A stretch of 64,000 bases of DNA, taken from the NCBI GenBank assembly GCA_903928915.1, contig CAIYSL010000098.1:99179-163178 (forward strand), in the 5' to 3' direction. The notes beneath the pieces are model-generated. The model did no database searches. It was not told the DNA's origin and saw only the letters and a program-made list of their open reading frames with translations. This stretch comes from an uncultured Syntrophobacterales bacterium. Lineage in GTDB: Bacteria > Desulfobacterota > Syntrophia > Syntrophales > UBA5619. Shown here piece after piece: positions 7,281 to 29,399 of this stretch. Made by a program: the position numbers and the translations under genes. Each line of letters begins with the position of its first letter. Positions within the stretch are counted from its first letter, which is position 1.

Positions 7281-7532
7281 TTCTATTGTGTCGTCATATG
7301 AGCCCACAGAACGCTCCTTTAAAAGCCCAATGCCCGCACAACTTGATCCATCAATCAGCACTTCCTTCGGGGCTGGTCACATTGTGGACCAATACTTTTT
7401 TAAAAATGGTCAGATCTCTTTCTCACTGCCTCAGTGCATACATGAGACAGGGGAAATATGCAATCCCGTATTCCGCTGCGCCTGGGAGTCGCTCAAGGTC
7501 TTCATGCAGGAGGCGGTGCCGGAAAAGGCACC

Positions 7533-7561
7533 TGAACCGCCCCGGGTTTTCCGGAGCCTCC
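7533..7561. repeat. IS3 terminal inverted repeat, left
   Basis: This 29-bp repeat begins TGAACCGCCCCGGG and pairs with 8813-8841 at 25 of 29 positions. It lies just beyond the orfB stop codon. Confidence 0.85.
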
Positions 7562-7562
7562 G

Positions 7563-8791
<1,229 letters not shown>

Positions 8792-8812
8792 ATCTCCATC
8801 CTCTCACAGAAT

Positions 8813-8841
8813 GGAGCCTCCGACAATCCCGGGGCGGTTCA
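8813..8841. repeat. IS3 terminal inverted repeat, right
   Basis: This 29-bp repeat ends CCCGGGGCGGTTCA and is the inverted partner of 7533-7561. It lies about 20 bases upstream of the orfA start. Confidence 0.85.
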
Positions 8842-8958
8842 GTCGACGTGTCCGTCATCTGGCGATGAGCGCATCGCTCATCGTGCCCCCAGGTTTTCCC
8901 TCCTGCGGGCGCCGGCAGCCAACTTCATCCCGCCACAACAGGTTGTGCCTCATTTTTT

Positions 8959-9171: not shown

Positions 9172-9273
9172 CATGCGCATCCATAAAAGCCCCACCCAAT
9201 TTCTGAAGCGATGTCTGGTGCTGAATATGTTGCTCAAATTCCCACGGATCATGCGAACCTGGAGGGCGATACC

Positions 9274-12200
9274 ATGAAAAAGATCATCGGGGTTCTTGTT
9301 CTTCTCCTGTCACTTGCATCCACGGCTCTTGCCCAGAACGGCGGCTATGCCGTCAAGTTCGACGGTATCAACGGCTACGCTGCGGCATCATTGGCTAGCG
9401 GCAATACCAATAGCACCATGACGATGGAATTCTGGTTTGCGCGAGCAAGCGACCAGGCAGGGCTCAAATACTTGGGGGAGTTACATTCATTGGCAGGGCT
9501 GAACAGAAGAAGAGTAATGCCTTTTATCAGCAACGGCGAAATAGGCATTTATGCCGCACCGAATACCGATGACGATAATAACTCGATTAACTTATTTACC
9601 GGCGTTGTACCCCCGCTTCATATATGGACGCATATTGCCGTGGTAGTAAACGGGTCGAATATAAGAATGTATATCAACGGCAAAGAATATGTGAATACCA
9701 GCCTCACCGATTCCTATCAACTCACCGGGACCGAAGCGCTATTGATCGCAACCGATAATTTGGCCTCAACTTATGCAAACATCAAAGTGGATGACGTGAG
9801 AATATGGAGCATCAACCGCACCCAGGCACAAATATATGCAACCATGTATAAAGAATTGGCAGGGAATGAAGCGAATTTATTGGCTTATTATAAACTGAAC
9901 AACGGCGCGGGAGGCGTCTTTGAGGATAACAAAACTGCGGCTCCTTATCACGGAACGTTATCAGGAGGAATAACTTGGCAGGCCTCCGGTGCGTTTGCCG
10001 GAACGAGAACCGGGCTCTACTTTGACGGTACCGACAACTACGTCGATTGCGGAAACGGGGCCCACGTACAGTTTAACGGAGCGCAAAATCTTACCGTTGA
10101 AGCGTGGGTCAAACCGACCGCGGCTCAATGGGGATCGATCGTATCAAAATTCCAGCACGCTGCGGCGCACGAAGGGTACAGCCTCGAAATGTTTTCCGAT
10201 TACAGAATATCTTTATTGTTCGGGAATAACTGGTCAGATTGGAATGCATATACTACAACAAATTCCCTAACTCCGAATACATGGAATCATGTTGCCGCCA
10301 CTTATGACGGCAGCACAGTAAGGATTTATATAAACGGCCGTCTTGATGGTTCCGGTTCCTGGGGCAACGGATGTACTGATTCGGGAACGCCCCTGGTTAT
10401 AGGAGCCCGAATGGGTACTGTGACATTTGGAACATTCTTTGGCGGGTACATCGATGAGGTTCGCGTGTGGGCCACAGCCCGCACCGAAGCGCAGTTAAGC
10501 GAAAATATGGGTAGAACCCTTGCCGGAAACGAGGCGGGATTGCGGGCCTATTACCGGATCGATGAAACGGCGGGATCCACCACATACGATCAGACAAGCT
10601 ACGCTGCCAACGGAACGTTGACGAACATGAATACGGTGACCGACTGGTCTGCATCGGATGCATTCAACACCTGGATCGGCGCGGAAAGCAACGGCTGGAC
10701 CAATGCCGGAAACTGGACCAAGGGAGTTCCGACTTCAGATCAGAGCGTCGGAATCTACAAGTGGGATTTGGGAAATGAAGCCACGATCAACTCAACGCCG
10801 GCTGTTCGCAGCATGGTCGTTTCATCGACATCCTCGCCGACATTGAGTTCTGCGTTAACCATCAACGGCAATCTGATTCTGGAAAAGAATTTTGACTTGA
10901 ACGGAAACAACATCACGCTCAGTTCTACATCTTACCTTCGGGAAGGGACAGGGGTACTGTCCGGAGTCGCGGGAACGATATCGACAACCAGAAATCTATC
11001 ATCCCCTGCCGCTCTCGATGTCGGCGGGCTCGGTTTAAGAATTTCTTCAACAATCAACCTTGGATCCACCACAATTACCCGAGGGCATGCTGTACAAACC
11101 GGCAATGGTAACAGTTCTATCAAGAGATACTATGACATCTCCCCAACGAACAACTCATCCGTAAACGGAACAATAGTATTTCCTTATTTGGATTCCGAAT
11201 TGAACGGGTTGACCGAGAATAATTTTGTGCTGTTCCGCTCGGCAGACGGCGGAACAACCTGGACCAATCAGAGCGGGACGCTATCACCTGCGAACAATAC
11301 CGTCACCAAGTCAGCGATTCCCAGTTTTTCCCGGTGGACGGTCGGAGACAGCGCATTGCCGTTGAATGCTTTACCTCCGGGGATGGATGTCCAGGGGAAC
11401 GGCGTCTCGATCGCGGACGGCGATTCCACCCCCTCCACGGCCGACGGTACCGATTTCGGCAACACCAGCACGACGTCGGGGACATTGGTCCGCACCTTCA
11501 CGATCCGCAATACCGGAGGATTGAATCTGAACCTGACCGGGTCGCCGAAGGTAGCGGTGGGCGGGGCCCATGGAGCGGACTTCACAATCGCCACCCAGCC
11601 TTCCTCTCCGGTAGCCGGCGGCGGGAGCACCACCTTCCAGGTGACCTTCCGGCCCTTGGCTGCGGGACTCCGCACCGCGACCATCTCCATAGCCAGTGAC
11701 GACGCGGGCAAGAATCCCTACGACTTTGCCATCCAGGGCATCGGCACTGACCAATCCGACGGCGACGGCGTACCCGACTGGGTGGAACAGGGGCCGAACG
11801 GAAACGATCCTACCTATGACGGAAACGGTGACGGAATACCCGATTGGCAGCAGAATAACGTCTCCTCGTTCCACTCCCGCGGTCCGGATGGCAACGACCA
11901 TTATGTAACCTTGGCGGTTCCCCCGGGCCGGGTCATCGATTATCTGTATGCTGCGAGTAGCGTTGACACGCCGCCCCCGGAGGGGGTCAGCTTTCCCTAC
12001 GGCCTATTTGCGTTCGGTATAACCGGATTGTCCTGGGGCGGGTCCACAACCATGACTCTTTACCTGGGTGGCGAACCGCCACAGACATACTACAAGTACG
12101 GGAAGACTCCTGAGAATCGGCAGAATCACTGGTATGAGTTCTCTTATGATGGGGAGACGGGCGCCGAGGTGGTGGGCAATACCGTCGTCTTACACTTTGT

Positions 12201-13512
12201 GGACGGGAAACGGGGAGACCATGACCTGGAGATCAACGGCAGAATCACGGATCCCGGAGGACCTGCCCGGATTGAATCGCATGCGGCGCTCTATTTCCCC
12301 TATCTGGCCTCGACCGCAGACGAGCAGACGGAGATCGGGATCATCAACACCGAGAACTTTGCCACCACATCCATCGTCTCCTTTTACCGGGACAACGGAG
12401 ATCTGATCCAGGCCGCCAGGATCCCGATAGGTCCGCACGGAAAGGCAACCATCTTATCTCACAACATCCCCCCCAATAGTGCCAGCGCGATCGTTTCGGG
12501 GGACGGCAAGCGGCTGGGCTATGCCAGGAACGTCACCGGCCAGGGCAAGAGATGCGCATGGCCTGCCGACACCTACCTGCAGAAATCCCTCCCCGTGCCC
12601 CACACGGCGGTCGACAGTCACTGGGCAACGGCCCTTTCCCTCTTCAACCCGAATGATGAGCAGGCGGAGGTTACCCTGACTTATGAATCCGGGGTAACCG
12701 ACACACACGTGCTGAATGCACGGTCGCGGAAATTCTTCTGGCTGGAAAAGATGAAATCTGTCATTGCGATCAATTCCACGGGGTACATCTCGGCGCTGGA
12801 AATGTTCGACAGCCTGGTTCCCGGCGGGGATAGTGCCGCCCTGCTGCTCAAAGAGCGTTCCCTGAATGAACTCTATGTGCCCTCTCTTCTCTTCGGTGCC
12901 GGGGAGTTTACCGGTATTGGCCTCAAGAACTACTACAATGGCATCGTGACTGTCGCCGGCCACAATGCAACGGGCGTGACGCAGGAAATCTCCTTTGGCA
13001 CACAACCGTTGGGTACGTCGAAACCACAAAGCCAAATAGCGTTCAATCTGTCCGGGATGCTCGGGGAGGGAAGCGTGTGGGCGAGGATATCCGGCGTGGC
13101 GGATTTCACCACTCCGGTCGGCACTCCGTTGCTTCATTTCCACGGTATTGCAGTCTATGGGAAAGAGGATACCGCAAGACTGGCAGCGGTTAATCTGAAC
13201 ACCCTCAGATTCAGAGAGGGCTTCCTCGGCATCGTCGGAGACGATGCAACCCTGTCGCTTCTCAATCCGAACACGGTGGAAGCTGCCGTTACCGCTACAG
13301 GCTACAACGCTTCCGGCGAAGTCCTGGCTGTTAACGCCATGAAAATCGCCGCCGGATTTACCTGGACAGGAACGGCAGGTGATCTGTTGAATGGCGCCTC
13401 TATTGCCGGCATCACCCATATCAAGGTTGCATCCGATACCTATCTCTGTGGGTTTGAGGCGGTCTCCGCCAATGATCGGCTGGAAATGCTGCCTGTCATG
13501 GAAAGCAATTAG
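9274..13512 (+). CDS. Large secreted LamG-domain / choice-of-anchor D protein
   Basis: This 1412-residue surface protein starts at ATG 9274, preceded by GGAGGG; an upstream in-frame start at 9211 would spoil the signal peptide. Signal peptide residues 1-21 end ASTALAQ. Two LamG/concanavalin-like jelly-roll domains follow, the first near residues 25-215 ([27 protein letters not shown]) and the second near 244-420 ([33 protein letters not shown]). Then come a WxGAxSNxWTNAGNW segment (~470) and a choice-of-anchor D Ig-like domain (~722-823). Two calcium-loop-like DGDGVPDW / NGDGIPDW motifs (~829-860) follow. The ~500-residue C-terminal region is built of beta-rich repeats ([22 protein letters not shown]). 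LamG domains bind glycans or proteins, so a role in adhesion or polymer binding is inferred. No sortase or autotransporter signal is seen. Confidence 0.85.
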
Positions 13513-20196: not shown

Positions 20197-22449
20197 TCAC
20201 CTCTGATCCATGCCCACCGGATTGCCGTTAGGCAGCGTGACCCCTGCCGTCTCCAGCAGCCTTTGCGGGAAATTCTGCACGCCGGCAGCTGAAAGCACCG
20301 ATTGCGGCACGTGTTGCGGCCCCTGAATCAGAATGTTACCCAGATAATTCAGGTTGGTCGGGTAATATGTACCGTTTTCCCAGTAAGGGCAGACATTGAA
20401 GTACCAAAGGTTTGTCAGGTAATTACCGCTGAAGGTGATATCTCCGTAGGTCTGGCAGCCCCCCAGGTCAAAACCGTACAGAATGTTGTTCAGGCCGCTG
20501 TAGGGAGGATACGGCAACAGGTTGTCAGGCGCAGCGGGCGGCCCGAAATCGGTGAAACCGGTTGGATTATCATAGGAGACGTTTCCCTTCAGCATGATGT
20601 AACGGCTTCCCCCATCGGTGTAAAAGGTGTTGCCGCCACCGCCGATCCTCTTGTTTCGGGCTACATTCCCTTCTATCAGCAGGGCATCCTCCATGGAACT
20701 CCCCTGCTGTCCGGTTGTGTAGATGGCACCCCCGTCCCAGACTACCTGGAGAAAGCGCTGGATCAGGTTGTTGACGATCCGGTTGCCGCTGTTGACGGTC
20801 GGCGCCGTAATCGTCATCCACTGTCCGCGGGTCGCATGCGGCAGGCCGGGAAACATGCCTGGATCGAGCAGCCCCCAGCCCCAGCCCATGGCAATGCCGG
20901 ACCACGGGACATCGCTGATGGTATTGTTGCTGATCAGGGTGTTGCGGCTGAAGCCGACATAGATGCCGGCCGCATCCACATACTCCTGCCCTGTCTGGTA
21001 GATCACGTTGTTTGTAATCCGGTTGTCCCGCGTCAACTGTTCGGAAGAGACCGGATGATGATCAATACCGCTGATCCCTCCCAACTGGATGGCCGCTGAG
21101 GAGATATCGGCAAACAGACAGTCCTCGATGCTGTTCCCCTGGCTTCCGCTATCGAAATCAAGGCCAACACCCCCCAGATGCATGAACACCGTCTCTTTGA
21201 AGGAGATGTTTCGGGCGTAGGCTAACCGGACATTCCCCGGTGTCCGCACCGGTTCCTGCACATGGCCGATAACATTAGCGGCGTATCCATCACCGACCAG
21301 ATGAAATCCGCTCTGGTCAGAGACATACCCGTTCACCGCTGGGTCGTTCCAGGTCCCATAGGCGAAGGTCAACCCTTCAAAACGGATATGCTCAACCGGT
21401 TGCGAGGGGCGGCCCTGGGCGTCAAGCAGCGCATCGCGCACCGGCAGCTCCACCTGGGCGGTTGCCATATCCTCCCCCGGACGCGGCATGTAGTAGAGCA
21501 TACCGCCGGACGGGTCTGACTCGTCCAGATACCACTCGCCTGGCTCATCCAAGAACTGTTTGGCATTCTCAAACCGTGTCACCTGCCAGAAGCTCCACAA
21601 GCCAGGCTGCCTGGTTTCGTTTGCCAGAAAGAGATTCGCATTCCTCCAGGGTTGCGCCTTCATGACCAGCAGGCCGGTCCGGGCAGGCACCGTCAGGGGA
21701 GGTCGACCCTCGGGGGGTACGTACGGAAGAAACTGTGGGTACGGGGTATATCCGGGATACGGTATCCGTGACTCCAGCGGTACGGTCATCATTTTCCACT
21801 GGGTGATGATGACCGCCTCGATCTTCGAGATATTGGTCCATTGCGATGGATCCTGCCAGGCCTCAAGCGGCTCGCTGGTCGGCAACAGATACTGGATACC
21901 GTCTGGTTTGGGTACTCCGTTCAGGTAGTAGAAGGCCGGCCGGAACGAGGGCGGGTAGTCAATGGTTCGTGCCCGTACGGCACGTACGCCGTTGACATAC
22001 AGCTGACGCGAGGAGACCTTGCCCACCACGGCCCTGTAGACCCCGGGCACGGAATTGTCCGGGGTCCAGTTTCTTACCTGCACGGAACCGGCGATTATCG
22101 GCCGTTCATTCGGCGCCGCCCGGTACACCACGGGGCGGCCCGGTTGACCGGAATCCCGCCAGTCCAGTGTCAGCGTCTGATCCAGGCGGTAAGTGCCCCC
22201 CTTAAGCGTGACAACGATATCGCCGCTCCTCTGGGCCTGCGGCAGCGACCGGATGGCATTCCGCGCCTGCTTGATGGTTGCAAACGGCGAGTCAGCTGTA
22301 CCGGCAGCGTTGTCGCTACCCTGCGGGGAAACCCAGAATTCGATGCGGGCAGGGGATGTCTCAGTGCTGCAGCCATTCAGTCCCGCCAGTGCCAGAATCG
22401 TCAGCACCAAGACAGCCATGGCGCCGTATGTAATCCGAACCGCTCTCAT
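20197..22449 (-). CDS. Right-handed parallel beta-helix lipoprotein
   Basis: This 750-residue exported protein has a lipoprotein signal with lipobox LNGC (Cys ~27), so it is probably anchored in a membrane. The N-terminus has the family opening WVSPQGSDNAAGTADSPFAT, then IKQARNAIRSLP. The middle and end (about 340-680) show beta-helix coils: IRFEGLTFAYGTW, NISFKETVFMHLGG, NRITNNVIYQTGQE, NTLISNNTISDVPWSGIAMG, NRIVNNLIQ. The fold is shared by polysaccharide lyases and glycosidases of GH120/GH141-like type, so action on a glycan is a fair guess. No catalytic residue can be assigned. GAGGGGGAA precedes the ATG. It lies 27 bases downstream of the thaumatin-like gene on the same strand, so the two are one operon. 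Confidence 0.85.
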   Translation of the reverse strand: MRAVRITYGAMAVLVLTILALAGLNGCSTETSPARIEFWVSPQGSDNAAGTADSPFATIKQARNAIRSLPQAQRSGDIVVTLKGGTYRLDQTLTLDWRDSGQPGRPVVYRAAPNERPIIAGSVQVRNWTPDNSVPGVYRAVVGKVSSRQLYVNGVRAVRARTIDYPPSFRPAFYYLNGVPKPDGIQYLLPTSEPLEAWQDPSQWTNISKIEAVIITQWKMMTVPLESRIPYPGYTPYPQFLPYVPPEGRPPLTVPARTGLLVMKAQPWRNANLFLANETRQPGLWSFWQVTRFENAKQFLDEPGEWYLDESDPSGGMLYYMPRPGEDMATAQVELPVRDALLDAQGRPSQPVEHIRFEGLTFAYGTWNDPAVNGYVSDQSGFHLVGDGYAANVIGHVQEPVRTPGNVRLAYARNISFKETVFMHLGGVGLDFDSGSQGNSIEDCLFADISSAAIQLGGISGIDHHPVSSEQLTRDNRITNNVIYQTGQEYVDAAGIYVGFSRNTLISNNTISDVPWSGIAMGWGWGLLDPGMFPGLPHATRGQWMTITAPTVNSGNRIVNNLIQRFLQVVWDGGAIYTTGQQGSSMEDALLIEGNVARNKRIGGGGNTFYTDGGSRYIMLKGNVSYDNPTGFTDFGPPAAPDNLLPYPPYSGLNNILYGFDLGGCQTYGDITFSGNYLTNLWYFNVCPYWENGTYYPTNLNYLGNILIQGPQHVPQSVLSAAGVQNFPQRLLETAGVTLPNGNPVGMDQR

Positions 22450-22476: not shown

Positions 22477-25476
22477 CTATTTTGGACAGAATGTGATGGT
22501 GTAGTTTACGTTGGTTGCATCACCCTTCCCGGTGCAGGTAAACGTCCCCGACTTGTCGTCATAGGGATAGGTGTACGATGCGGGTGAAGCGGCATGGAAA
22601 AGCTTGTAATACGGCAGGGCCGTGCCGACCCAGGCCGAATTTGATGAAATCCCCTTGACCGTGCCGAAGTCATTCATCCAGTCCGGGTAGCCGCAGCAGT
22701 TCGAACCGACCCCTGCCGTGTAGCAGGAGTTTGCGTATATTGGGCCGGTACACTGAAACAGCGGGAGATTCGTGCCGCACGAAAGAGCAGCCGGCGGATT
22801 TTGCTGGCTGCACGCTTTAAGCGGCGAAAGGCAGCCGACATAAGTCCCTGAGGCATTCCTCAGCTGCAGTTCCGCCGGGCAGGTAGCCGCAGGAAGAACC
22901 AGGTTGCTTCCGCCCCATGTTGAAGGATCGGTCAGCCCTCTCCCGTAGGAGCTGCAGTCCGAGACACACCCCGGGCTACCGCAATAAAACTTGTTCACAC
23001 ACGTATTGATAGAGGTATCGCAAACCCAGTTGTAATCAAGGGTATTCCAGCAATCGGTATTGCTGCTGCAGCTGGTGCTGGACAGCTCGTCTGCAGTCCC
23101 CCTTCCATAGGTACCGGTAACCGGTGCAATCTGAACCGGCACGTTTGCCCCATCAACCAGACTGATGTCATAAAAGTCAGTACCCTTTGAGGGCAGGAAC
23201 ATGTTCAGTTCTGCCAGGGTCGGCGAATCTTCGCCGCTGTTGCGGCAGTTGGCGGATGGTTGCGGACTCAGCTGCTCATCAAAACACTTGCCGGTATCGC
23301 AGGTAAATGTTGCCGGGGTGCACAGATTCTGCCCCTGACCACTGCACTGATAGGCGGAACACTGCCGGTACCCGCAGACACCGATCGTCACATCCTGACC
23401 GGCAATACTTGTCTTCATCGGAACACAGGTGTAATTACTGCCTGCACCCTTGACCGCATCACAGCTTGCATCATCCCCTAGGGTGCACTCGTTGGCAGTG
23501 AACTGCTGGCCGGCATCAAAAATGGGAGTATCGGACTGATTGCATTTACCCCCCACGATGGCTGCATTTCCGGAGTACGGGCCGCAGTTACTGTCTGATC
23601 TGCAGTGAACCGGATATGACAGAGGACTGACAAGCGGCTGCACCAGTGCCCGACTTCCCGGATTCACCGATTTCGCATCGCACTGGGCATCGGTTCCGGC
23701 AAAGAGCGGGTCACAGGCTGAACCCACACTGACGCAGCCGGTCCTGGGCCAGAAGCGCCCTGCCCAGGGTGTGGGGACAAAGAGCGGTGTGGTGCCGCCG
23801 GCCCCGAGCTTCCAGCTGTTCCCCCGGTTGGCGGGAGGCTGGGAGGCACAGACACCCTGCGGGGCGGTTGTGGTAAAACAGAACTGGTTGCTTGCGCAGT
23901 CGCTGTTAGTCGAGCATGAAACCGCAGGGGCAACGATCTGGCTCCTTTCCACCGGAATCGGGACATAGATGCAGTTCTTCCAGCCGCACTGCCCGGTGGC
24001 TGTATTGCAGAACTGGTTGCTGCTGCAATCGGCATCGCTGGTGCAGCCGCTGCCCACTTTGTCATTGTAAGAAGGGGTGCCGCCGCAATAGGTGTTTGGC
24101 TCCCGGCAGTCTCCATTCTGCTTGCAGGGGTAGGTTGTGCAAAGATTATAGCAGTTGCTGTCTTTCATGCAATCGCTCGTGAGCGGCGGACAGGTGCCGC
24201 CGTTACAATCGGCGGAAGATCTGCACTTGACAGCCATCGTGTTGCCGGAGGCGGCAGCCCAGACCTCGCTGCTGCAGTTGTTGAACAGGTTGATCACTCT
24301 GCCGGGCATACCGGTCGGCCCGGTTGTGCCGATGAGCGTCGCATGGACCATATTGGCATCAGTAATGGTCGCACCGGTCAGATCGGTTTCTTCAAGGTTC
24401 GCACTGCCCAGATCGGTATTGCTGAGGTTGGACGTCCTGAGGTTGCTTCCACTGAGGTTGGCCCTGTTCAGGTTCTTGTTGCTCAGATCAACCCCTTCCA
24501 GATTGCAATTTGCACAGCTGCCGGTTGCAATCAGTTTCTGCAGGTCCTCTTCCGAATAGGTCGCAGAGCCTCCGTCCACAAACAGCGAGGGGGCGGTAAC
24601 CTCCAAGCCGCCCATGGCCACTGGTGCTGTTCCAAAAAGGATTCTGGCAGTAAAGATAATGCGATTGGTGGATGTATCGTACGATGGAGACTTGGTGAGC
24701 GCGACGATCTGCGCTCCTCCGGCCTGCCCGTCGCGGGTATCGTAGGCGATGGAGATATTGGGCTGAGCGGAAGCAAAGCGCGTCTGCCAGGTCTGGAGGT
24801 AATCATTCAGAGGGATGACGGTTGACTTCCGACCCGGGGCATTGGTGTAACTGAAGACGCTGCCGTACGGTTGCTGCAGGGTGATGGTAACGGTGCCATC
24901 GCCGACAGGGGCGGAAAAGCTGCAGCGGCTGGCCGCCATCAGCTGCGACCACTCTTCAGCACCAGGTTGGGCATTATTCAGAATGATGATTTTTATATCG
25001 CTGACCTGCAGGTTGCTGATCGGCTTCTGATTGCCGTTCAGGTAGGTAACGGTAAAGCCGAGCTGTCCGGTCGTGCTGTTGTACGACGGTTTTTCCAGCA
25101 TACAGAAGATATCCAGAAACCCTTTGTCAGGCAGCGTGGCACGCACCAGCGCATTCGGGGCAACGGAGCCGTACACCCGAGGCCAGATGGAGTTGACCAG
25201 ATTGTTGACAGTATCGTACCCGGCCTCCTCGGCGGGTCGGTCGGTGAAGTACAGTACCGTTCCCGGTACATCGGTCAAGGTCAAGACAAGCTTGTTGCCG
25301 GTGGTGTCGCCGGAGATGGCAACAAAGCTCCCCGTGCTGGCGATCATCTCATAGATGCGCAGCGCTTCGTTGCGTGTACCGCTGCTGTCACGGCTGCATC
25401 CTGCCGGCAGCCCGACTGCCAGAAAGATCAACAACACGAGAACTGCACGCACTGAAACGTTGGCTGGAACTGGCAC
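22477..25476 (-). CDS. Lipoprotein with pentapeptide repeats and thaumatin-like domain
   Basis: This 999-residue protein starts at GTG 25476, preceded by AAGGAG; an upstream ATG adds 18 residues before the signal. The lipobox LPAGC gives a lipid-anchored Cys. An N-terminal beta-rich region (~30-310) precedes about a dozen pentapeptide repeats (~320-380: NLEGVDLSNKNLNRANLSGS). From ~392 to the end a thaumatin-family domain is recognisable: VINLFNNCSSEVWAAASGN, SWKLGAGGTTPLFVPTPWAG, the hallmark DFYDISLVDGANVPVQIAP, CPAELQLR, NCCGYPDWMNDFGTVKG, and the ending SYTYPYDDKSGTFTCTGKG with TITFCPK. It is about three times the usual ~200 residues because cysteine-rich DADCSSNQFC / SNTDCWNTLDYNWVC-type segments are inserted. 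Thaumatin-like proteins are best known from plants as beta-glucan-binding defence proteins; the bacterial role is unknown. Confidence 0.85.
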   Translation of the reverse strand: MPVPANVSVRAVLVLLIFLAVGLPAGCSRDSSGTRNEALRIYEMIASTGSFVAISGDTTGNKLVLTLTDVPGTVLYFTDRPAEEAGYDTVNNLVNSIWPRVYGSVAPNALVRATLPDKGFLDIFCMLEKPSYNSTTGQLGFTVTYLNGNQKPISNLQVSDIKIIILNNAQPGAEEWSQLMAASRCSFSAPVGDGTVTITLQQPYGSVFSYTNAPGRKSTVIPLNDYLQTWQTRFASAQPNISIAYDTRDGQAGGAQIVALTKSPSYDTSTNRIIFTARILFGTAPVAMGGLEVTAPSLFVDGGSATYSEEDLQKLIATGSCANCNLEGVDLSNKNLNRANLSGSNLRTSNLSNTDLGSANLEETDLTGATITDANMVHATLIGTTGPTGMPGRVINLFNNCSSEVWAAASGNTMAVKCRSSADCNGGTCPPLTSDCMKDSNCYNLCTTYPCKQNGDCREPNTYCGGTPSYNDKVGSGCTSDADCSSNQFCNTATGQCGWKNCIYVPIPVERSQIVAPAVSCSTNSDCASNQFCFTTTAPQGVCASQPPANRGNSWKLGAGGTTPLFVPTPWAGRFWPRTGCVSVGSACDPLFAGTDAQCDAKSVNPGSRALVQPLVSPLSYPVHCRSDSNCGPYSGNAAIVGGKCNQSDTPIFDAGQQFTANECTLGDDASCDAVKGAGSNYTCVPMKTSIAGQDVTIGVCGYRQCSAYQCSGQGQNLCTPATFTCDTGKCFDEQLSPQPSANCRNSGEDSPTLAELNMFLPSKGTDFYDISLVDGANVPVQIAPVTGTYGRGTADELSSTSCSSNTDCWNTLDYNWVCDTSINTCVNKFYCGSPGCVSDCSSYGRGLTDPSTWGGSNLVLPAATCPAELQLRNASGTYVGCLSPLKACSQQNPPAALSCGTNLPLFQCTGPIYANSCYTAGVGSNCCGYPDWMNDFGTVKGISSNSAWVGTALPYYKLFHAASPASYTYPYDDKSGTFTCTGKGDATNVNYTITFCPK

Positions 25477-25575: not shown

Positions 25576-25605
25576 AATATAGGTGGCCGGTTTCTTGTAT
25601 GTCAA
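25576..25605 (-). promoter_or_regulatory. Promoter of the thaumatin/beta-helix operon
   Basis: On the - strand, TTGACA (25600-25605), 18 bases, TATATT (25576-25581), about 100 bases upstream of the GTG start. The rest of 25477-25853 holds only ABC-F remnant E. Confidence 0.6.
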
Positions 25606-26425: not shown

Positions 26426-27316
26426 CTATCTCAGGAGCTTGCCACGCAACTGCGCCTGTGTGGCGGCGTCCAGACCGAGGCCGTAGGTGATGTAGCCGGC
26501 CATCGACCCGTAGCTTGCCGCTGCCTGGTCAAACCCGGCAGCGAGGTAGCGCTGATCCGCCACCATCGTGGGCAGGTAGGCATCTGCGTGGTCCTTGCCG
26601 TACGCCGCCACCAGGGCCTGATAGGACGCCTGAATCGAAGCCGCAGAATAGGTATTGGTGAGCAGGTAGTCCTGGACGATCACGCTCTGCGGGACATCCA
26701 GCAAACTGAGCAGGACCGCGGTCACCCAGCCTGTACGGTCCTTGCCGGCGCTGCAGTGGTACACCTGAGAGCCGCCGGTCGTTGCAAGCGCGCGGAAGAG
26801 TTGTGCCAAGCGGTCGCGCATCCCCGGATCCGTAACAAGCGCCCTGCTGGTACTCTCCATCATGGCGAAGGCCTCGGCCGCCGAGTTCGGGGCCGGTATT
26901 TTGTCGATGTATTCTCCCAGGATATCGATGTTGAGGTAGTTCGCGCCCGCGGGGGGGATGTCGGGCTTTTTCGCGATCTCCCCCGGGCTGCGAAGGTCGT
27001 AGACGGCCAGGATGCCCAGGGTATTCAGGGTTGCCAGATCGGATGCCGAAGGCGCCAGGGCGTTCGAACGGTAGACGACCCCGCGGCGCAGTTGCCGACC
27101 GCTCGCGGTGCGATACGCCTCCTGGTCGTCGGTTCCTGCGATGTCGCGGAAATTGTCGACCGATTCCAGCCGCGGGGTGGGCGCTACCGCGAGGTCGCTG
27201 CCACCTCCGCAACCCGCAAGCCAAAGACTGAAGAGCAGCGGCACCAGGAGGCCCAACGGCAAGACGTTCACGACCTTCCCCGCTCGGCGCATATTGGAAT
27301 GAGATATCGCTTTCAT
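26426..27316 (-). CDS. Secreted tyrosine-specific protein phosphatase (lipoprotein)
   Basis: This 296-residue protein has a lipoprotein signal (LLFSLWLAGC) and a Y_phosphatase3-type domain: DNFRDIAGTDDQEAYRT, GVVYRSNALAPSASDLATL, VYDLRSPGEI. The active-site P-loop is HCSAGKDRTGW (Cys nucleophile and Arg both present, ~195). The family resembles bacterial LipA/MptpB-type phosphatases acting on phospho-Tyr or phosphoinositides. AGGAGAAAG precedes the ATG. It lies on the same strand as, and ~100 bases downstream of, the metallophosphoesterase gene, so both may act on phosphate esters outside the cytoplasm. Confidence 0.9.
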   Translation of the reverse strand: MKAISHSNMRRAGKVVNVLPLGLLVPLLFSLWLAGCGGGSDLAVAPTPRLESVDNFRDIAGTDDQEAYRTASGRQLRRGVVYRSNALAPSASDLATLNTLGILAVYDLRSPGEIAKKPDIPPAGANYLNIDILGEYIDKIPAPNSAAEAFAMMESTSRALVTDPGMRDRLAQLFRALATTGGSQVYHCSAGKDRTGWVTAVLLSLLDVPQSVIVQDYLLTNTYSAASIQASYQALVAAYGKDHADAYLPTMVADQRYLAAGFDQAAASYGSMAGYITYGLGLDAATQAQLRGKLLR

Positions 27317-27416: not shown

Positions 27417-29177
27417 CTACCCTATTGCCGACCCGCAGTTGGCGATCTTCGCCTGCATCTCCGGCGTCAGTTGCTTCACGAGCTCGGCATTGTAGGCCAT
27501 GGACCCGGTATCCAGCCGGATCGCGTCGGTGGCGCCGAAGATCCGCGCGGCGCCGACGGCATACCCCCGCGACTTCGCCGCAGGCGTCTGCGGGGCCACC
27601 GCGGGGTCGACATTGGTGATGAGAATCGAAACGGTGTTGTCGCTGTTGCGGCGGATGTCGAAGGTCCTGAACTGCTGGGGGAAATCCCTCAGCGATGCGG
27701 TCTCGACCTCCCAGAAGCCGTACTCCGGCCCCTTCCCCGCGGGCGCCGGCTGCGGGGTCACGACATTCACGTGCCGATGTCCCGCGATCCAGAGGATGAG
27801 GTTCGGGTAGTTGTGGAGGACGGGCAGCAGCGCGGCCTCCGTAAACCCGGGGGAACGGAAGAAAGAGAAACTCGTCGTGTCGGTCAGGCTGTTCTGGGGG
27901 TTGATCGGGATGTGGGCCGCGATGATCATCAGCTTGCCCTCGTCCTGGCCTTTCTGGAGTTCGGCCGTGAGCCAGTCGAGCCGGGCCTGGTCGAGACCGC
28001 CCAGGGCATACATCGGCTGGTTGGGTCCCTTGACGGCATCGTCGAGGGCGATGACCTTGATCGGCACACCCGCCTTCGGCTCGAAGCTGTACGAGGCGAA
28101 GGCGTTGTCGAGGCTGGCCTGGGTGAAGCCGTGGCCGACCGGTTTCGACGTGGTGGTGAAGAACTCGCGCATGAAGCCCTGGGTAGCAGAACCGGGGGAT
28201 GCGAGGGAACGGCGGTCGGGGTCGGCCGCGACCGTCGGCGGCGTGGGAAACCGCCCTTCCGGCCCGGCCTTGATGATGTCCCCGTAGGGCGTCGTGCCGT
28301 CGACCACCCCCATGTAGCAGCCGGTTCCCTGGAGGGCCGCAGCGGACGGGATCGGGGAGTTCTCGAAGTTGATCACCGCAGAACTGATGCGGGCCGACAA
28401 TGTTTTTTCGTTTTCCCAGAACGAGCCCAGGAAGTACTGATCGTGGTTGCCGATCACCTGATACCAGGGGATCGTCCGGTCGAGCCCGGCTGCCTGGAAC
28501 GGCCGCTGATAGTCGATGGCGTCGGCCCCGTCATGGGCGCCGGAGCTGGGGGTGACGAGCCTGCCGTCAAGAACGTCGATGTACCATCTCAGTTCATTGT
28601 ACTGCGCGTTGTTGGTGGCGTCCCCCAGGGAAATGCCGAAATCGAACGGCGCCCTCTTGTGCAGGACGTTGATCGTCCTAATGGTGGCGTCGAGGACCTG
28701 GGTCGAGGCGAGAATGACCGGTGAATAGGCCGACGACATCCCGGCAGAGGCCGGGCCGTACTGTGCGCTCCAGCCGACGTAATTCGCCTGGGCCGGGGAC
28801 TCCTTGTCGCAGATGTGGATGTCGCTCAGGGAAAAGAAGCTCAAGAGACGCGCCGCATTCGGGGAGCCGGCATAGCCGGGCGCAAGCTCGGTGCGCTTCA
28901 CGTACCCCAGCCCGGGGCCGGCCTGCCAGGCGCTGTACCCGTATTGCGCGTACAAGGGCACATCCGCCGGATTGATCTTTGGGGTGGATGGGGGCAGTCC
29001 CACGGGCATGATCTGCTGCTGGGCCGTCGTGAAGACCTGATCGGCGATCGGCCATTCCAGCGTGCCGCCGCCGTTGCCGCCGCATCCGTAACCGAACGAA
29101 CCCAATGAAATCCATGCCGCGGCTCCGGCGGACAATTTCATGAATTCCCGCCGAGTAAGACCGGTGCGCGATTTCAT
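27417..29177 (-). CDS. Tat-exported metallophosphoesterase (TIGR03768-like)
   Basis: This 586-residue protein has a twin-arginine signal (LTRREFMKLSAGAAAWISLG). The ATG at 29177 gives the proper signal; the frame upstream to 29312 is unlike coding sequence. Calcineurin-like metal motifs are spread over the protein: SLSDIHICD, GISLGDATNN, VIGNHDQYF, IIAAHIPINP and WIAGHRHVNV. These provide the D-x-H, G-D, G-N-H-D and G-H-x-H ligands of a two-metal phosphatase. Tat export suggests the metals are loaded in the cytoplasm. Its substrate is unknown. It is probably co-transcribed with the secreted tyrosine phosphatase. Confidence 0.88.
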   Translation of the reverse strand: MKSRTGLTRREFMKLSAGAAAWISLGSFGYGCGGNGGGTLEWPIADQVFTTAQQQIMPVGLPPSTPKINPADVPLYAQYGYSAWQAGPGLGYVKRTELAPGYAGSPNAARLLSFFSLSDIHICDKESPAQANYVGWSAQYGPASAGMSSAYSPVILASTQVLDATIRTINVLHKRAPFDFGISLGDATNNAQYNELRWYIDVLDGRLVTPSSGAHDGADAIDYQRPFQAAGLDRTIPWYQVIGNHDQYFLGSFWENEKTLSARISSAVINFENSPIPSAAALQGTGCYMGVVDGTTPYGDIIKAGPEGRFPTPPTVAADPDRRSLASPGSATQGFMREFFTTTSKPVGHGFTQASLDNAFASYSFEPKAGVPIKVIALDDAVKGPNQPMYALGGLDQARLDWLTAELQKGQDEGKLMIIAAHIPINPQNSLTDTTSFSFFRSPGFTEAALLPVLHNYPNLILWIAGHRHVNVVTPQPAPAGKGPEYGFWEVETASLRDFPQQFRTFDIRRNSDNTVSILITNVDPAVAPQTPAAKSRGYAVGAARIFGATDAIRLDTGSMAYNAELVKQLTPEMQAKIANCGSAIG

Positions 29178-29399
29178 GAAACCCTCGCCGGGTTCCGCAG
29201 TGGTGTTGCTCTTTCGCTTTCGATCCCCTGATCCCTTCATGTGCCGTATTCTCTTCTTTCCTCCGTATCCTCGAAAAGGGCAGCGCCGAGTCCTGAACTC
29301 GCACTGCCCCATTCAACTACTACAGCATCGGCATCGGCGCGGGAAAGCTTTAATGGACTGATTGGGGAATTCGACCTACCACCGAAGAGGGCGCCCTTC

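Follow-up and report, generated by a model that had tools for sequence, protein, structure and literature searches.

A 999-residue protein of an uncultured Syntrophobacterales bacterium ends in a thaumatin-like (TLP) domain that is expanded by four inserts, and its gene is adjoined by a gene for a GH141-family enzyme. Judged by sequence, residues 390–999 are a genuine thaumatin domain (PF00314), a family that includes antifungal and sweet-tasting proteins of plants, and genome comparison indicates that the two genes have moved between distant bacteria by horizontal transfer. The TLP gene product is probably exported and lipid-anchored, and its business end is thaumatin-like (GH152/GH64 superfamily) with an intact acidic cleft. 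Bacterial TLPs were known already; the expanded architecture and the mobile GH141 partner are new. Features of the window, that is, the whole stretch of 64,000 nucleotides that was analyzed, are collected in Table 1.

The TLP reading frame is genuine. An AAGGAG ribosome-binding site was observed immediately 5' of its GTG. The sigma-70-like promoter is a consensus match only, and such matches occurred at chance level over the region (2 observed vs 2.9 expected from shuffles). The preliminary description of this DNA lacked the strand of the gene, but its motifs and coordinates were correct.

Table 1. Positions of features in the window
Feature	Position	Strand	Basis or remark
TLP lipoprotein gene	22477–25476	−	GTG start 25476, stop 22477; 999 aa
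Sigma-70-like promoter, TTGACA-18-TATATT	25576–25605	−	11/12 consensus match, ~100 nt further upstream
Predicted lipoprotein signal peptide, lipobox LPAG-C (Cys27)	25396–25476	−	Sequence, by eye
Tandem-duplicated ~100 aa domain	24577–25341	−	Copies within residues 46–172 and 184–300
Pentapeptide repeats, about 12 (residues 324–383)	24328–24507	−	Pfam Pentapeptide, E 5.6e-13
Thaumatin domain with inserts (residues 390–999)	22480–24309	−	Pfam, PDB TLPs, osmotin alignment
Cysteine-rich insert 1 (residues 411–550)	23827–24246	−	Osmotin/PDB TLP alignment
Cysteine-rich insert 2 (residues 582–722)	23311–23733	−	Osmotin/PDB TLP alignment
Cysteine-rich insert 3 (residues 791–835)	22972–23106	−	Osmotin/PDB TLP alignment
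Insert 4 (residues 906–950)	22627–22761	−	Osmotin alignment
Partner lipoprotein-like gene, GH141-family right-handed beta-helix enzyme	20197–22449	−	27 bp downstream of TLP gene
IS3-type transposase frames, overlapping	7563–8471 and 8471–8791	−	
ALIL frameshift pseudoknot of the IS3-type element	8397–8513		Rfam RF01497
Terminal inverted repeats of the IS3-type element	7517–7571 / 8803–8857		

The thaumatin domain and its inserts

The Pfam Thaumatin profile matched the protein in three collinear stretches with a score of 55.9 bits (cut-off 27.4; E 6.1e-15). The TLP part alone, searched against the PDB, matched the cherry TLP 2ahn in four ordered collinear pieces (E 1.3e-17), followed by apple TLP, osmotin, NP24, and zeamatin. 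Against osmotin, the real TLP part scored 24.5 bits vs at most −1.1 bits in 60 shuffles. All five acidic-cleft (REDDD) residues were kept in register with osmotin (R574, E756, D770, D775, and D973 or D974); the osmotin sequence of this alignment is consistent with the fragments from the PDB search. The motifs quoted in the preliminary description were all located, namely DFYDISLVDGAN at residues 767–778, YPYDDKSGTFTC at 970–981, and FCPK at 996–999. TLPs have 16 (or 10) conserved cysteines that form 8 (or 5) disulfides; 13 of the 16 were aligned here, and positions 147, 156, and 175 were lost. Cysteines 147 and 156 of TLPs are disulfide-bonded to each other, and C147–C156 was the only canonical disulfide lost as a whole pair. 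The strict TLP signature, the PROSITE-type (PS00316-type) pattern G-x-[GF]-x-C-x-T-[GA]-D-C, is built on eukaryotic members without being the definition of the family; it matched osmotin and was absent from the window protein and from the other bacterial TLPs tested. At this site the window protein reads TFTCDTGKC. An AlphaFold model of residues 390–999, made from a two-row alignment, was unusable (pLDDT 29) for judging the three-domain fold of TLPs.

Plant PR-5 TLPs have 205–220 residues, whereas the window domain has about 610 because of its four inserts, whose boundaries are approximate and most of which are cysteine-rich. Insert 1 separates the first TLP strand from GRFWPRTGC. The cysteine-rich inserts of the preliminary description were confirmed; the 610 residues contain 52 cysteines. 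In the 73%-identical homologue L024, 56 of the 57 aligned cysteines were conserved, the exception being Cys185, a residue outside the TLP region. The motif C-x(3)-[DN]-C is repeated, exactly or nearly so, with starts at residues 418, 478, 521, 625, and 803. Its C-x(3)-[DN]-C ... C spacing is like that of Myxo_Cys_RPT (TIGR04201), a repeat described from myxobacteria, but the insert repeats score under the curated cut-off of 25 bits (L024: 20.3 bits, E 7e-4; window insert 1: 12.8 bits). Because of this weak match to a bacterial repeat, no eukaryotic source is needed for the inserts, and what had been read as eukaryote-like knots is better explained as a bacterial cysteine-rich repeat. A eukaryotic knottin origin was rejected, as the sole PDB match was a squash trypsin inhibitor at a non-significant E of 1.6.

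The idea that a bacterial TLP is in itself undescribed was not supported. PF00314 was present in 14 of the 395 genomes of the phylum, and thaumatin-domain proteins of Legionella were reported in 2014 (PMC4256840). A Bifidobacterium TLP annotation is on record (PMC8227663), and a TLP tree includes bacterial entries (PMC13106811). The claim of an unusual architecture was supported. The Legionella and phylum TLPs, like the window protein, are exported bacterial proteins that contain a thaumatin domain, and some have cysteine-rich inserts (L043, L046, and L049 in the phylum). The core is different, however: it scored 67 bits with a plant TLP, while no phylum TLP apart from the L024 homologue gave more than 27 bits, and only L045 shares the N-terminal module. 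This plant-closer score may reflect an exchange with eukaryotes, or else that bacteria have been sampled sparsely. In a tree of TLP cores, the window pair joined the plant TLPs weakly (support 0.65–0.87), the plant rows being HMMER-selected fragments.

Plant PR-5 TLPs (PF00314; GH152; cherry Pru av 2, 2ahn, and osmotin, 1pcv) share the collinear core, REDDD, and the 13 of 16 cysteines with the window domain. They differ from it in length, in their C147–C156 pair, and in the strict signature; the window domain is bacterial and is fused to a duplicated domain and pentapeptides behind a lipoprotein signal. The laminaripentaose-producing beta-1,3-glucanases of GH64, a bacterial beta-1,3-glucanase family, belong to the same GH64-TLP superfamily (PMC13106811), but the Pfam model of GH64 did not match the window protein at E ≤ 10. 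The related Desulfuromonadia TLP L074 matched the bacterial GH64 beta-1,3-glucanase model weakly (E 1.5e-4). Three loci in other genomes of the phylum (L051, L053, and L054) showed a short C-terminal, small-TLP-like stretch behind an apparent outer-membrane beta-barrel/inverse-autotransporter-like domain. A further TLP-matching frame of the phylum (L055; G266:C23:38148-38567) has one in-frame TGA and is probably decayed or contains a sequencing error.

The N-terminal half

The lipoprotein signal named in the preliminary description is probable. LPAGC was found by eye at residues 23–27, and the lipobox of the L024 homologue is LASC; the Pro at position −3 is atypical and non-canonical, which counts against a lipoprotein on the envelope. 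The pentapeptides, also named there, were confirmed as about 12 tandem A(D/N)LXX repeats. Three things had been missed there: the GH141 neighbor, the horizontal movement of the two genes, and the duplicated domain. The two copies of this domain matched each other by blastp at E 2.9e-8 and by hhalign with a probability of 97%, and a Pfam search of the domain gave no match at E ≤ 10. AlphaFold modeled the N-terminal part with a pLDDT of 55; Foldseek of this model against the PDB returned no match at E ≤ 0.001, with TM-scores of 0.22 or less among the matches listed.

Among the 395 phylum genomes, the full tandem module was observed only in the host of the TLP gene and in G268. The G268 protein (L045) is lipoprotein-like and carries the module directly before its TLP, without pentapeptides. 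Duplicated domain and TLP thus occur together more than once, and the pentapeptide repeats appear to be an additional, optional spacer. Single-copy relatives of the domain were detected in G261 and G174. This Pfam-less exported domain of about 100 residues, with a signature like FSDRP...PNA...PTALFID (also written FSDRP ... PPNA ... PTALFID), is duplicated in the TLP proteins (window 24577–25341; L045:451-1320) and single in small exported proteins (L080:1312-2109; L081:449-1006).

Partner gene, transfer, and selection

The partner matched Pfam GH141_M and, over the beta-helix, BT_1002 of B. thetaiotaomicron (5mqp; E 2.7e-53). Aspartates D572 and D612 of the partner fall on 5mqp chain residues 528 and 569 (spacing 40 vs 41). 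These two would correspond to D523 and D564 of BT_1002 if the chain offset is five, and the identical offset at both aspartates supports this reading. D523 and D564 were proven essential by mutation (PMC12786026, PMC10154630; for GH141 catalytic residues also PMC5593877). The family (BT_1002, Xyn141E, and the Wf141 endo-fucanases) comprises a fucosidase, a xylanase, and endo-fucanases, and the substrate of the partner is unreadable from its sequence.

The pair recurs in the Geobacter sp. UBA6169 MAG (L024) with protein identities of 73% for the TLP and 82% for GH141, and the intergenic gaps are 27 and 29 bp in the two genomes. A single block of 5.2 kb with 77% DNA identity spans both genes and excludes the flanks, yet RimO of the host and of the Geobacter MAG is just 48% identical; horizontal transfer of the pair was concluded from this difference. 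The TLP was absent from all six same-genus genomes, and of the 277 genomes in the class of the Geobacter MAG, 3 have TLPs. The contig of the window is native, because POR-alpha, encoded on it 19 kb away, has an orthologue with 76% identity in a same-genus genome (27% in the Geobacter MAG). Cross-phylum transfer was considered and rejected: whether the phylum was sampled from the Geobacter MAG or from the window, the same places came up, and the transfer was therefore within the phylum. A plasmid tblastn with two TLP queries gave no match. Elsewhere, the two families occur apart, with a GH141 relative in a genome where no TLP was detected (G309) and a TLP without an adjoining GH141 (G268).

Both genes are under purifying selection. 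The dN/dS between the host and L024 was about 0.13 in each gene and was lowest in the TLP protein for residues 723–790, the core around the cleft (0.03), these ratios being approximate because synonymous sites are near saturation.

Upstream of the two genes, also on the minus strand, lie an exported lipoprotein-like tyrosine phosphatase (26426–27316; Y_phosphatase3, E 8e-58) and an exported Tat-signal metallophosphoesterase (27417–29312). The window also contains an IS3-type insertion sequence that looks intact (7517–8857) and, on the plus strand at 9211–13512, a 1433-residue protein with a Laminin_G_3/ConA-like lectin domain. The C-terminal part of this protein has a 61% identical paralogue about 135 kb off on the same contig, and weaker paralogues were found elsewhere in the genome.

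Proposed function and alternatives

We favor, with about even confidence, the reading that the two proteins form a cell-envelope polysaccharide-processing pair in which the TLP is a GH152-type beta-glucan hydrolase or binder. The intact cleft, the strongest constraint in its region, and the GH141 partner make envelope-bound polysaccharide processing the likeliest function. Both proteins would be located at the cell envelope and act together on a complex polysaccharide. The TLP would bind or endo-hydrolyze beta-1,3- (or mixed 1,3/1,4-) glucan, and the GH141 partner would cut a fucosyl- or xylan/pectin-type linkage. The cysteine-rich inserts could make the extracellular protein more rigid and alter the rim of the cleft; the duplicated domain and the pentapeptide rod may form a stalk or provide binding modules. 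REDDD contains the catalytic pair presumed for GH152, and one GH152 member, a TLP from a whitefly, proved to be an endo-beta-1,3-1,4-glucanase (PMC11800479). Several points tell against glucan processing. The pair has been seen in just two genomes, and each of the two families also occurs apart from the other. Inserts of 140 residues lie beside the cleft strands and could obstruct catalysis or abolish it. In plants, glucanase activity is low or absent in many TLPs that carry REDDD.

The main rival, which we consider possible but rather unlikely, is a non-catalytic surface protein: the TLP would be a degenerate, disulfide-armored binding or structural module (adhesin, biofilm), and GH141 a chance or loosely linked neighbor. 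The huge cysteine-rich inserts, the pentapeptide rod, and the duplicated beta-rich domain resemble a stalked surface protein, and relatives of the two genes are found apart. However, REDDD is complete, the lowest dN/dS falls exactly around the cleft, the GH141 catalytic pair is retained, and the two genes moved jointly. An inhibitor of xylanases or other enzymes, modulating the GH141 partner or foreign glycosidases, is very improbable. Some small plant TLPs do inhibit xylanases (PMC3048497) and GH141 includes a xylanase (PMC5593877), but the structure of these small TLPs has no acidic cleft, whereas the cleft region is the most constrained part of the window protein.

The plant-like score of the core bears on two other explanations. 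PR-5 TLPs are antifungal (PMC13148976, PMC3048497), and an antifungal or inter-microbial weapon of PR-5 type, permeabilizing or digesting the walls of competing fungi or other eukaryotes, would agree with this score. We regard such a weapon as improbable: a lipid anchor is ill-suited to a diffusible toxin, the GH141 partner suggests polysaccharide use, and the Geobacter MAG relative is of a sediment/anaerobe type. The host of the TLP gene is a sediment-type bacterium. Eukaryotic contamination or an assembly artifact, which could likewise place the core nearer to plant than to other bacterial TLPs, was refuted by the independent Geobacter MAG homologue and by synteny, and is barely conceivable; the start signals are prokaryotic, the layout is operon-like, the lipoprotein signal is bacterial, and contig genes have same-genus orthologues.

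More tentatively, and with considerable doubt, the polysaccharide-processing pair may be a mobile bacterial two-enzyme cassette of GH141 and an expanded GH152-type thaumatin, whose plant-TLP-like core, possibly of eukaryotic origin, was rebuilt with bacterial cysteine-rich inserts and anchored to the surface. Such a cassette, if real, would provide the first thaumatin-domain glucanase of bacteria for which a partner is known. To our knowledge, TLP research has been almost confined to plants, fungi, and animals. An expanded TLP with an intact cleft that is genetically tied to a GH141 enzyme retaining both catalytic aspartates gives the testable proposal that bacterial TLPs may serve glucan use over defense, and here the thaumatin domain travels between distant bacteria within a two-gene unit.
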